DNA of 63,500 nt, taken from positions 233,813 through 297,312 of the forward strand of contig NZ_AOJE01000070.1 of assembly GCF_000337915.1 (NCBI RefSeq), in the 5' to 3' direction. Position 1 is the first letter of the stretch, and the number at the start of each line of letters is the position of its first letter. Positions 5,902-21,299 of this stretch are shown piece after piece. This DNA comes from Halorubrum saccharovorum DSM 1137 (lineage in GTDB: Archaea > Halobacteriota > Halobacteria > Halobacteriales > Haloferacaceae). The notes under the pieces were generated by a model. It saw only the letters and a list, made by a program, of their open reading frames with translations. It did not search any database and was not told where the DNA came from. The position numbers and the translations under genes are program-made.

Positions 5902-6677
5902 GCGGGGAGCCCGCGCCGACCGACGCCGCCCGGACCCCCCTCGTCGAGGCCCGAGACCTCACGTTCGGATACGCCGCCGTCCCGGTGGTCGAGGACGTGG
6001 ACCTCCGGGTCGAGCGCGGCGAGTACGTCGGGATCGTGGGACCGAACGGCTCCGGAAAGAGCACGCTGCTCCGGCTTCTCTTGGGACTTCACGAACCCGA
6101 TTCGGGGTCCGCCGAACTGCTCGGTCACCCGGCCCGGGCGTTCGCGGAGCGCGAGCGCGTCGGCTACGTCGCACAGGACGTGACGGAAGACGAGAAGCGG
6201 ATGCCGATCACGGTGAGCGAGGTCGTCCTGATGGGTCGGTTCCCGCACGCCGGGTTCGGCCGGGTGACGGCGGACGACCGCGAGCGCACTCGCGAGGCGC
6301 TTCGGACGGTCGGGATCGAGCACCTCGCCGACCGCAAGATCACCGCGCTCTCGGGCGGCCAGCGCCAGCGGACCTACATCGCCCGGGCGCTCGCGGGCGA
6401 GGCGGAGCTGCTCGTGCTCGACGAGCCGACGGTTGGCGTCGACGCCGAGTCGGTCGAGGCGTTCTTCGAGCTCCTCGACGGGCTCGTCGACGACGGGATG
6501 ACCGTCCTGCTGGTCGAACACGACATCGGCGCCGTCATCGAGCACGCCTCCCGGGTGGTCTGTCTCAACCGCGAGGTGTACTTCGACGGCGACCCGACGG
6601 CGTTCGCCGACAGCGACGCGCTCGATCGGGCGTACGGGACGAACGTCCGGCGCGAGGAGGGAGGGATCGTCACGTGA
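5898..6677 (+). CDS. Metal ABC transporter ATP-binding protein
   Basis: 259-residue ATPase that powers the metal uptake system. Walker A is GPNGSGKST (residues 48-56), the Q-loop lies in YVAQDV, the signature is LSGGQRQR, Walker B is LLVLDEPT, and the switch His lies in LLVEHDIG. The ATG at 5898 overlaps the stop of the substrate-binding gene (ATGA). The frame is open far upstream, but that part is antisense-like. The closest family type is ZnuC/MntB. Confidence 0.92.
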   Translation: MSGEPAPTDAARTPLVEARDLTFGYAAVPVVEDVDLRVERGEYVGIVGPNGSGKSTLLRLLLGLHEPDSGSAELLGHPARAFAERERVGYVAQDVTEDEKRMPITVSEVVLMGRFPHAGFGRVTADDRERTREALRTVGIEHLADRKITALSGGQRQRTYIARALAGEAELLVLDEPTVGVDAESVEAFFELLDGLVDDGMTVLLVEHDIGAVIEHASRVVCLNREVYFDGDPTAFADSDALDRAYGTNVRREEGGIVT

Positions 6678-17206: not shown

Positions 17207-18514
17207 TCACGGGAACAGCCCGCGGTACTCGTGGGCGCTCGCGGTGCGTTCGAGCGCGAGCGTGTACGCGGCGGTCCGGAGGTCCGGAAGCCCCTTCTGG
17301 TCGTACTGGTCGATCGTCTGATCGAAAGCCGTACCGATGCGGCGCTCCAGTTCGGCGTTGACGGTCTCAAGCGGCCAGGAGAACTCCTGCGCGTTCTGGA
17401 CCCACTCGAGGTACGAGACGATGACGCCGCCGGCGTTCGCGAGGATGTCGGGGACGACCTGGATGTCCCGCTCGGTGAGCACCTCGTCGGCGGCGACGGT
17501 CGTCGGGCCGTTGGCCGCCTCGACGATCGCGGAGGCCCGCAGGTCGTCGACGTTGTCCTCGGTGATGACGCCCTCGATCGCAGCGGGGATCAACACGTCC
17601 ACGTCCAGCGTCAACAGCTCCTCGTTCGGGATCGCGTCCGGGTCGTCCCACTGGTTCCCCCCGCCGGTTCGCCGGTCCTCGGGCAACGCTCGGGGGTCCC
17701 CCGTCACGTACTCCTCGATCAGCCCGCCGGCGTCGACGTGAGCGCCCAGCGCCGCCACGTCGAGTCCGTCGGGGTCGTAGGCGGCGGCGCTCACGTCGGA
17801 GGCGGCGACGATCCGCGCACCGGACTCGTCGAGGAGCCGAGCCGCATGCGACCCGACGTTGCCGAACCCTTGGATCGCCACGCTGGCGTCGGAGAGGTCG
17901 CGGTCGAGGTACTCGAAGAGCCGTTCGGTGACGATGGAGACGCCGCGGCCGGTCGCGGCGACGCGCCCCGGCGTCCCGCCGATCTCCAGCGGTTTCCCGG
18001 TGACCACCTGCGGGACGGAGTGCCCCTCGTACATCGAGTAGGTGTCCATCATCCACGCCATCGTCTGCGGGTTCGTGTTCATGTCCGGCGCGGGCACGTC
18101 GGTATTGGGGCCGATCATCCGGCGGATCCCCTCGGTGTACCGTCGGGTGAGGCTCTCCAAGTCGTTCTGGGTGAGGTCCTTCGGCTCGCAGACGACGCCG
18201 CCCTTCGCCCCCCCGTACGGGAGGTCGACCAACGCCGTTTTCCAGGACATCCACCCGGCGAGCGCCTCGACCTCGCGCTGAGTGACCGACGGGTGGAACC
18301 TGACGCCGCCTTTAAACGGACCGCGGGAGCTGTCGAACTGGCAGCGATACCCCTCGAACACCTCGACCTCCCCGGAGTCGAGCTCCACCGGGAGCGTGAC
18401 CTTGAGCGTGCGCTCCGGGTGTTTGAGCCGTTCGAAGATGCCGTGATCCACGTCGGCGTACTCCTCCGCGCGGTCCATCTGTGCGAGCATGTTCGCGAAC
18501 GGGTCGTCGGCCAT
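17207..18514 (-). CDS. gdh: Glutamate dehydrogenase (Glu/Leu/Phe/Val family)
   Basis: 435-residue enzyme that interconverts 2-oxoglutarate plus ammonium and glutamate. Key parts are GPFKGGVRFHPSVT (substrate site), LPYGGAKGGV with the catalytic Lys, GPNTDVPAPDMNT, the dinucleotide-binding GFGNVGSHAARLL, and LIPAAIEGVI. Length is normal for hexameric archaeal enzymes. GATAATT near 18555 supports a start at 18514 rather than 18541. The next operon upstream on the same strand encodes PgsB/PgsC-like proteins, for which this enzyme could supply glutamate. NAD versus NADP preference cannot be decided. Confidence 0.93.
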   Translation of the reverse strand: MADDPFANMLAQMDRAEEYADVDHGIFERLKHPERTLKVTLPVELDSGEVEVFEGYRCQFDSSRGPFKGGVRFHPSVTQREVEALAGWMSWKTALVDLPYGGAKGGVVCEPKDLTQNDLESLTRRYTEGIRRMIGPNTDVPAPDMNTNPQTMAWMMDTYSMYEGHSVPQVVTGKPLEIGGTPGRVAATGRGVSIVTERLFEYLDRDLSDASVAIQGFGNVGSHAARLLDESGARIVAASDVSAAAYDPDGLDVAALGAHVDAGGLIEEYVTGDPRALPEDRRTGGGNQWDDPDAIPNEELLTLDVDVLIPAAIEGVITEDNVDDLRASAIVEAANGPTTVAADEVLTERDIQVVPDILANAGGVIVSYLEWVQNAQEFSWPLETVNAELERRIGTAFDQTIDQYDQKGLPDLRTAAYTLALERTASAHEYRGLFP

Positions 18515-18606
18515 GGTCGGCCCGACTCGTCCCCGGGTCATATCGGTTTCGGCAATTATCGCGTGCGTGAGAGAGTGTCAATCACGCACATCCGCAACGG
18601 CGGCGC

Positions 18607-18683: not shown

Positions 18684-19835
18684 TCACCCGACCGTCCGCC
18701 GATCGATCTCCGCGGTCAGTTCGCGCATGAACTCCGCGACGGTGTTCCCCATCAGGTAGACCGGATATCCCTCAGCGAGACACGCGTCGAGGACCCGCTC
18801 CGGCGGTTCCGACTCCGGGTGATGGACGAACTCGGCGTCCACGCGCCGTTCCAACAGCTCGGCGTGCGATCCCGCAACGTGGACCGGGCCGATCAGACCG
18901 TTCTCCGCGAGCCACGTGAGGTAATGGACGAACGCCGCGGTCCGTCCGGCGCGGTCCCGGCGCGTGTACATGAACGGCGTGATCGTGGTGCCGTCGAGAC
19001 GGTTGACGAGGAACTGTCTGAGCAGTTCGGTCGACTCGATGTCGTTCATCATCGCCCCGTTCGAGACCAGGCCGCCGCCGTCGAGTCGCTGCCACCCCCA
19101 CTCGCTCCGGAGTTCGGTGACGAGCGACTCGATCCGAGACGGCGGGAGCGGCTCCAGGTCGAGCGCGCGGAGCGCCTCGTCGACGAGGAGCGCCGACCGG
19201 GCGCCGAACACGTCTTCGAACGGGGAGTCCGGACGCGGTTTGGCGACGGTGAACGTGTGGCCCGTCTTCTCGAACTCCCGCCCGAGGTACTCGTTGATGG
19301 CGTCGTTCCGATCGCCGCTGATGACGTGTGCGTCCTCCGGGATCGTCCGCGTGAACAACCGGGCGATATCGGTGAGTTCCGCGCCGAGCGTCGACTGGTG
19401 GTCGCGGCGGACGTTGAGCAGGAGGACCACCTGCGGATCGAACAGCTCGTTGGCGAGCCGAGTCGTGTACTCTCGGATGCCCTGGTTCTCGGCGACGATC
19501 GCGTCGACGGGCGCGTACGTCCGGAGTTCGCGCTCGTTCTCGTAGAGCCGCGTCGGCCCGCTGCGGGAGATCTCGTGCTCGCTGCGGTTCCGGTACGAGA
19601 AGGCCTGATTGCCGGTGACCTTCGCGTACGTTTCGAGGTCGCGCGCGACGAGGGCCTCGTTGAGCCAGCGAACGACCGTCGACTTACCGCGCACGCCCGA
19701 GACGGTCACGCGATACGGCGTCTGCTCGACGCGCTCGAAGTGCGACCGGCCGCGCCCCGCGACGTGCCGAACGGTCCGTGCGGAGCGGGACAGCGCGCGT
19801 CGCAGCCGCGAGAGAACGCCGTCTCGGTCGCTCAT
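18684..19835 (-). CDS. PgsB/CapB-like polyglutamate ligase
   Basis: 383-residue Mur-ligase-like ATP-dependent amide ligase, close in length to Bacillus PgsB. The P-loop is SGVRGKST (residues 46-53); further family features are AKVTGNQAF, AIVAENQGIREYT, VVLLLNVRRDHQSTLG and HVISGDRND. The reaction expected from the family is ATP-dependent polymerisation of glutamate through gamma-carboxyl links at the membrane. The ATG at 19835 overlaps the stop of the membrane partner by 4 bases. No CapA/PgsA-type gene is seen beside it. Cyanophycin- or folate-type ligase activity is less likely because of the PgsC-like partner. Confidence 0.8.
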   Translation of the reverse strand: MSDRDGVLSRLRRALSRSARTVRHVAGRGRSHFERVEQTPYRVTVSGVRGKSTVVRWLNEALVARDLETYAKVTGNQAFSYRNRSEHEISRSGPTRLYENERELRTYAPVDAIVAENQGIREYTTRLANELFDPQVVLLLNVRRDHQSTLGAELTDIARLFTRTIPEDAHVISGDRNDAINEYLGREFEKTGHTFTVAKPRPDSPFEDVFGARSALLVDEALRALDLEPLPPSRIESLVTELRSEWGWQRLDGGGLVSNGAMMNDIESTELLRQFLVNRLDGTTITPFMYTRRDRAGRTAAFVHYLTWLAENGLIGPVHVAGSHAELLERRVDAEFVHHPESEPPERVLDACLAEGYPVYLMGNTVAEFMRELTAEIDRRTVG

Positions 19836-21061
19836 CGGTCCTCCTCCTCCGTGTCCGCGACCAGGGGCGAGCCGTCAAGGTCCCCGTCGTCGAGCGAGAC
19901 GTTGGCGAACACCGACTCGCGGGCGAACGCCGCGGAGTCGGGGATCGACCGCTCGAACCGGTACATCTCGATCAGGGCAAGCCCGACGGCGACGATCCCG
20001 AGGAAGGCGGCGGGACTGTAACCCGAGTGAAGGAGGCCCTCGGAGGGGATGTCGACGAGCACGAAGAGGATCCCGTAGAAGAGGGCGAACAGCCCGGCGG
20101 AGATCCGAATGTGCGCGGACCGGTTTTTCGGCGCCACGCGATGCAGGTTGTACGCGCCGATGCCGACGAACAGGCCGATGAAAAAGAGGATGATCCCGGG
20201 TGCTGAGATCGATTGGAGAACGCCGATGACCAGGACGTACGCCGTGCCGAGGGCGAGCGAAATCGCGAGGAGCACCCTCCCGTAGATGAGCGTCGTCCAG
20301 TGGACGTACGAGAGGAGGAAATACACCGCGGTCGCGCCGATGGCGTAGATGACGATCGCGGGGGCGTACCGGACGCTGAACACCGCCAACAGCGGGATGA
20401 TGATGATCCCAGCGAGGCGGTGATCGTAGCGTTTGCGAACCCCCTCGTAGATGACGATATCCGTGAAGAGGAGCGCGATGGTGATCCGATCCGGGATGAT
20501 CGTCGGATAGACGCTCCCGTGCGGTTCGATCCCGATCCAGTGAATGGCGTCGCTCGTCGGCAGGGCGAGAATGGCCGGCGTCGGGGACCCGATCTCGGCG
20601 AGAACCAGCAACGACGCCGCTCCGACACCCACGAGGAAGAGATATCCCACACCCATCGCGATCAGATCGCCGCGACGGTCGTCGGGATTGAGACGCATGA
20701 CGTTGTACGCGGTAACGCCGGGGAAGATGCTCGCGATCACCTCGGCGTTCTCGAACGAGAGTTGCCCCGGAAAGAGCAGCGAGAAGGCGTATCCGGCGAG
20801 TATCGTAGCGATCGCACCGACGGTGACGGACGCCAGAAAGAGGCGGCGGCCGTGGTTGAGCGTGTACTCTCGGAGCAGCCAGAGGGCGATCCACGCGGCG
20901 ATCGCTCCGATACCGAATATCACCGGGGAGAGCGGCTCACGAAACGTGTAGATGGCGAGTAGCGGGAGAACCATCACGCCGCCAAGTCGGTAGCCTTCGG
21001 ACTGCGAGAGGAGCGCGACTAGCGTCAGCCCGGCGACCATGATGACGGAAGCGGCGATCAT
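19832..21061 (-). CDS. PgsC/CapC-like membrane protein with two repeated modules
   Basis: 409 residues, almost all membrane-embedded except for an acidic C-terminal tail of about 55 residues. Bacterial PgsC/CapC is about 150 residues; here two copies appear fused. Module 1 has GYRLGGVMVLPLLAIYTF, NHGRRLFLASVTVG and FPGVTAYNVMRLNPDDRRG. Module 2 has DHRLAGIIIIPLLAVFSV, IYGRVLLAISLALG and FVGIGAYNLHRVAPKNRS. The last pair matches the PGLIAxD..RQG element of PgsC. First gene of a two-gene operon with the PgsB-like ligase. A TATTTTAATA box lies about 35-40 bases upstream. The role in polyglutamate synthesis or export is inferred from the pair. Confidence 0.75.
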   Translation of the reverse strand: MIAASVIMVAGLTLVALLSQSEGYRLGGVMVLPLLAIYTFREPLSPVIFGIGAIAAWIALWLLREYTLNHGRRLFLASVTVGAIATILAGYAFSLLFPGQLSFENAEVIASIFPGVTAYNVMRLNPDDRRGDLIAMGVGYLFLVGVGAASLLVLAEIGSPTPAILALPTSDAIHWIGIEPHGSVYPTIIPDRITIALLFTDIVIYEGVRKRYDHRLAGIIIIPLLAVFSVRYAPAIVIYAIGATAVYFLLSYVHWTTLIYGRVLLAISLALGTAYVLVIGVLQSISAPGIILFFIGLFVGIGAYNLHRVAPKNRSAHIRISAGLFALFYGILFVLVDIPSEGLLHSGYSPAAFLGIVAVGLALIEMYRFERSIPDSAAFARESVFANVSLDDGDLDGSPLVADTEEEDR

Positions 21062-21299
21062 CTGCGACCCCGCCTGTCCGGTCGGTAGACCGATATTAAA
21101 ATAGGACTGTTTGTATCACCGGTTATCTCATCGAATCGGAACCACACCGTCCCGTCTCGAGCCGGTTCGACCGGTCCGACCGCTGGCCGGTCCGATCGAG
21201 CTGCGCTCCGTGACGCGCTCGATGATTTCCGCCCGGACTTATACGTCGGGACCGACAACCACGGCGCATGACACTCGGACGCGCGTCGGGGGTGCGTCG

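Follow-up and report, generated by a model that had tools for sequence, protein, structure and literature searches.

A doubled CapC membrane protein and a PgsB-like ligase form a candidate two-gene poly-gamma-glutamate synthase in a Halorubrum-like archaeon

Do two overlapping genes of a Halorubrum-like archaeon encode a poly-gamma-glutamate synthase, and is its membrane subunit built from two fused CapC modules? Both genes lie on the minus strand, at positions 18684-21061 of the window (the whole stretch of DNA analysed, 63,500 nucleotides), with capC upstream and pgsB downstream. The reading frames were those of the original prediction, a 383-residue ligase and a 409-residue membrane protein overlapping by four bases, and the motifs quoted there were present in the sequence and conserved. 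The elements of the locus were as follows.

19832..21061, minus strand: gene for a membrane protein of the CapC/PgsC family (409 aa; two CapC modules in tandem, with one more C-terminal helix and an acidic tail)
18684..19835, minus strand: gene for a Mur-type amide ligase resembling PgsB/CapB (383 aa; no membrane anchor at the N-terminus)
19832..19835, minus strand: ATGA overlap of the capC stop and the pgsB start (4 bases)
21094..21103, minus strand: TATTTTAATA, a TATA-like element read by eye, located some 37 nt before the start of capC

The TATA-like element is a possible candidate for capC's own promoter. CapsuleFinder takes CapB and CapC as the sole mandatory parts of a PGA capsule system, with CapA and CapE as accessory ones, and such systems have been found in archaea (PMC5542703); with CapB and CapC encoded together, the window pair is a PGA capsule system in that sense. 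Viral or phage carriage of the pair was dropped as an explanation, since phages gave no match and viral contigs no confirmed case.

When the whole 409-residue protein was compared with the Pfam family PF14102 (Caps_synth_CapC, gathering cut-off 27 bits), it scored 101.6 bits over two stretches, and in a genome-wide search both halves exceeded the cut-off independently.

20681..21031, minus strand: N-terminal CapC module, the canonical half (residues 11-127; RLGG, GRR and PG.TAYN; PF14102 E 8.3e-23, 82.4 bits)
20123..20443, minus strand: C-terminal CapC module, the diverged half (RLAG, YGR and VGIGAYN; PF14102 E 6.0e-8, 34.6 bits)

The halves also matched each other. A profile built from 72 haloarchaeal N-halves recovered 72 of 72 C-halves (2.8e-22 for that of the window), and hhalign aligned the N-half and C-half profiles with a probability of 99.7 and an E value of 1.9e-26 over 145 columns. 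The tandem duplication goes far beyond what chance would give, and the predicted fusion of two PgsC/CapC modules, which was to be given up if the halves did not align with CapC, is borne out by the matches of both. The protein scored 27 bits against the NCBIfam PgsC equivalog model TIGR04011, short of its cut-off of 96.45, and neither sequence nor fold searches returned a solved relative of CapC.

An AF2 model of the doubled CapC, of moderate confidence (pLDDT 64, pTM 0.62, nine sequences in the alignment), contained 6+6+1 helices. In each half, loops 1, 3 and 5 carried positive charges, a pattern that fits two modules of the same orientation, each with an even number of helices; the protein would thus consist of two six-helix modules arranged in parallel, head to tail. 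Residues common to both halves were R25/R215, G28/G218, GR 71-72/261-262, G115/G300, A118/A303, Y119/Y304, N120/N305 and R129/R314, while the canonical residues P114 and G27 had been lost from the C-half, whose branch in the tree of halves formed a long stem, suggesting that the N-half is the canonical module and that the C-half has specialised. A tentative extension, which we consider possible but doubtful, is that the two fused CapC modules act as a covalently linked pseudo-dimer: the single bacterial CapC would surround one polyglutamate path as a parallel pair, and the archaeal second copy, which no longer has the PG-motif proline and has acquired fixed residues of its own, would have taken on a specialised role.

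The doubling is not peculiar to this genome, as the original prediction had implied. CapC was present in 67 of 292 haloarchaeal genomes, and in the loci extracted, which are partly redundant (72 distinct sequences), 79 of 84 CapC ORFs were full-length (at least 340 residues), with PgsB directly downstream in 78 of these 79. Doubling is the norm for haloarchaeal CapC. Eight genomes of one other family in the phylum also had two CapC matches within a single frame, and the five that were read out showed a 387-residue CapC upstream of PgsB. Two genomes of yet another family carried a single CapC of 156-159 residues (L149:5045-5515 and L150:5020-5499); they share with the window the position of capC directly upstream of pgsB, a PgsB lacking the membrane helix and the motifs R.GG, YGRR and FPG.IAYN, and differ in having one module, an unduplicated form outside the duplicated group. 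In the tree of halves, all archaeal C-halves formed one clade (100/100), the single archaeal forms fell outside the duplicated group (96/87) and the doubled sequences of the other family nested inside the haloarchaeal ones. This topology indicates one old archaeal CapC duplication that was later passed on and that the window inherits; a local, recent duplication was dropped, because every C-half sampled, from haloarchaea and from related archaea, falls in the same group.

The statement that bacterial PgsC has only one module proved too general. Single CapC proteins were found in Cetobacterium and Streptomyces (142 and 160 aa), but those of Chroococcidiopsis (plasmid pCHRO.01, 333 aa) and Corynebacterium glyciniphilum (plasmid pCgly1, 334 aa) carried two Pfam CapC stretches each, as in the window; the doubled bacterial cases seen were plasmid-borne only. 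These loci differ from that of the window in being bacterial, in the gene order B-C, in a PgsB with an N-terminal membrane helix and in the shorter CapC, and they formed long branches in the tree; they may stem from the archaeal event or from a separate one.

Within the genus of the window, the ligase was present in only 8 of 52 genomes, and the window type in only one other congener (70%; the others 42-43%). This patchiness suggests horizontal spread; related copies were located on plasmids of Halorarius, Halorubrum and Haloarcula. On a plasmid of Haloarcula sp. GH36, a fragment with 67% identity to the ligase of the window and no accompanying CapC (L051:5001-5630) looks like a decaying copy. 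At two further loci CapC was split into two overlapping ORFs (L063:5485-6144 and 6120-6644, 219+174 aa; L121:5112-6121, 128+207 aa), by frameshift, decay, sequencing error or, possibly, natural splitting.

To which family does the ligase belong? Its best NCBIfam family was PgsB (TIGR04012; E 4.6e-24, 84.9 bits, residues 31-184), 20 orders of magnitude ahead of the next; MurD gave an E value of 0.075, and Pfam returned a weak Mur_ligase_M match only. CphA consists of an N-terminal ATP-grasp domain fused to a Mur ligase domain, and a cyanophycin synthetase was rejected for this protein of 383 residues, as it had neither a CphA match in NCBIfam nor an ATP-grasp domain in Pfam. The prediction of a PgsB/CapB-like ligase, which a better fit to another Mur-ligase family such as cyanophycin synthase would have overturned, therefore stands. 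Aligning 12 ligases from archaea and bacteria gave 27 invariant columns, and the window ligase kept 27 of 27; the core comprises the P-loop G(I/V)RGKS, K.TG, E116, N.R.DH, ND..S and R.DR..R, two elements of which are located here.

19677..19697, minus strand: P-loop GVRGKST, ATP binding (G47, R49, G50, K51 and S52 invariant in bacteria and archaea)
19398..19415, minus strand: NVRRDH motif, residues 141-146, matching the N..DH of Mur/FolC (N141, R143, D145 and H146 invariant)

Among solved structures, folylpolyglutamate synthases ranked first against the ligase profile, and the predicted ligase model (pLDDT 73) matched the folds of MurC, MurD and FPGS. With FolC as the nearest solved-structure family, the enzyme might be taken for a folate polyglutamylating or other cytosolic gamma-glutamyl ligase unrelated to export. 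We regard this as highly improbable, given that the folC model TIGR01499 gave only E 1.4e-3 (18.1 bits, cut-off 162.65) against the 4.6e-24 of PgsB, on which grounds FolC identity was dropped, and that the ligase is constantly paired with a membrane protein of 12-13 helices.

The ligase differs from bacterial PgsB at its N-terminus, which was not transmembrane-like (maximum hydropathy -0.3). A hydrophobic N-terminus was found in 0 of 47 archaeal ligases beside a double CapC, versus 4 of 4 bacterial PgsB. The duplication of CapC was dropped as the cause of the missing helix, since the two archaeal ligases beside a single CapC also lack it and, conversely, the bacterial ligases beside a doubled CapC have it. 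A separate archaeal PgsB subclass of 520-550 aa (L103:3118-4704, L047 and L144-L148) is extended at the N-terminus by about 130-150 residues, which in the L103 protein contain a DUF1508 domain.

Taken together, the best family of the ligase, its complete set of core residues and the nearly constant capC-pgsB pairing argue for a two-gene CapBC-type poly-gamma-glutamate synthase, which we consider the probable identity of the window pair, with the product as a prediction. Against it stand the moderate confidence of the double CapC model and its lack of a structural match, the absence of the N-terminal helix of bacterial PgsB, the fact that none of the family members was assigned by name to a haloarchaeon with proven production, and the scores of both proteins below the NCBIfam equivalog cut-offs (84.9 versus 222.7 bits for the ligase). 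Because neither cut-off was reached, we call the pair homologues that would work like PgsBC and not equivalogs; of the original prediction of a synthase, CapC in both halves and the PgsB-type ligase are supported. By analogy with the family, the cytoplasmic ligase would activate the gamma-carboxyl group of glutamate with ATP and join the next L-glutamate, while the double CapC, in place of a pair of single CapC subunits, would dock the ligase at the membrane and pass the growing chain outside.

The same machinery could instead make a modified or different gamma-glutamyl polymer, such as the poly-gamma-L-glutamate backbone of a glutaminylglycan-like wall polymer, or another amino-acid polymer. 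The ligase shares only 19-24% identity with the bacterial PgsB proteins compared and scores below the equivalog threshold, and a 2025 study proposes CapB for the synthesis of the wall polymer glutaminylglycan in Halobacteria (PMC11915815). Since all core PgsB residues are kept and no glycosyltransferase was found among the recognised immediate neighbour genes, we judge this alternative unlikely.

The partners of the synthase were predicted to lack CapA, which is correct for the locus itself, where none was found; on the same contig, 228 kb away, the genome encodes one PGA_cap protein (PF09587, E 1e-64; G000:C70:24203-25384, or L005:8203-9384), with a twin-arginine, lipoprotein-like N-terminus and near an oligosaccharyltransferase-like gene. 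CapA lay near capC-pgsB in 14 of 81 haloarchaeal loci and was somewhat commoner in genomes with CapC (43 of 67) than in the others (106 of 225; Fisher p 0.018, a value that ignores shared ancestry). It is therefore conceivable, but rather doubtful, that the pair and the unlinked protein form a complete CapBCA synthase whose stereochemistry or anchoring depends on CapA, an arrangement compatible with the two-gene explanation and graded separately from it. In the genus sample, however, a CapA homologue occurred in 14 of 27 genomes without CapC, besides 7 of 8 with it, and 24 of the 67 CapC-bearing haloarchaeal genomes had none. Being common without CapC and missing from so many genomes with it, the CapA homologue is not an obligate partner of the CapBC pair, and as it is common in congeners even without pgsBC, the main role of the unlinked protein may lie elsewhere. 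A gamma-glutamyltranspeptidase is also encoded elsewhere in the genome.

The neighbouring gene at 17207-18541 encodes, as predicted, a glutamate dehydrogenase (GDH), of the GdhB-like type; the functional link to the synthase found no support. GDH belongs to ordinary central metabolism, and none was detected in the flanks of about 80 other haloarchaeal capC-pgsB loci, closest relatives included. That it shares a functional unit with the pair and feeds the synthase is thus very unlikely, although its gene shares the strand of the pair and follows pgsB at a distance of 142 bp, and Natrialba aegyptiaca shows GDH activity while producing polymer (PMC4187202). As the adjacency is not conserved at other loci, GDH was dropped as an operon member, and the adjacency is best taken as chance.

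Returning to the two-gene synthase, the stereochemistry of its product can be predicted. In Bacillus subtilis, CapA is dispensable for polymer synthesis, and PgsBC without PgsA yielded a polymer of 95% L-glutamate at 26 g/L (PMC6029982). The Asp/Glu racemase family PF01177 was not found in the window genome, whereas the same search was positive in Haloferax volcanii. The L-rich product of PgsBC and the absence of this racemase family lead us to predict L-polyglutamate, an extracellular polymer that would hold water and salt. Natrialba aegyptiaca makes pure L-polyglutamate without D-glutamate suppliers and shows no racemase activity (PMC4187202).

The haloarchaeal pair has been known since 2006, when capBC of Haloquadratum walsbyi was named a polyglutamate capsule system (Bolhuis et al. 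2006, PMC1544339). We compared it through its relatives Haloquadratum J07HQX50 and J07HQW1, whose PgsB and CapC are 71-74% and 55-60% identical to those of the window, identities that are theirs and not those of the published H. walsbyi protein. Like the window they have capC upstream of pgsB and no linked CapA detected, and they differ in lacking a GDH neighbour and in having two copies per genome; the two window-type pgsB copies of each genome are separate (L036-L039). A capA-linked haloarchaeal group (Halorubrum lacusprofundi pHLAC01 and Haloarcula hispanica pHH126) also has a doubled CapC beside the ligase, but its operon includes a CapA of 685-704 aa, and its ligases, some of them extended at the N-terminus, show 38-40% identity. 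The Bacillus PgsBC(A)E and CapBC(A)DE systems share the CapC family, the PgsB core residues and the gene pair; in the window, by contrast, the order is C-B and not B-C, CapC is doubled, CapA is not linked, and the ligase lacks the membrane helix, with both proteins below the equivalog cut-offs.

A 2015 BLASTP survey did not find PgsC in archaea (PMC4497714), and the diverged, fused form of the archaeal protein is a likely reason. NCBI annotation already names such proteins PgsC/CapC; no published description of the double CapC was found in the open literature, most subscription journals lying outside its coverage. The window pair is thus a largely ordinary representative of the CapBC-type synthase that is standard in haloarchaea. 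Production of pure L-polyglutamate by haloarchaea is known, and the doubled CapC closes a gap in annotation; capC-pgsB offers a minimal two-gene candidate for producing this polymer. The doubled CapC is also a natural test of the stoichiometry of CapC and of its action as a dimer, and, should the pseudo-dimer prove true, it would provide a handle on a family without a solved structure and show how CapC works everywhere.
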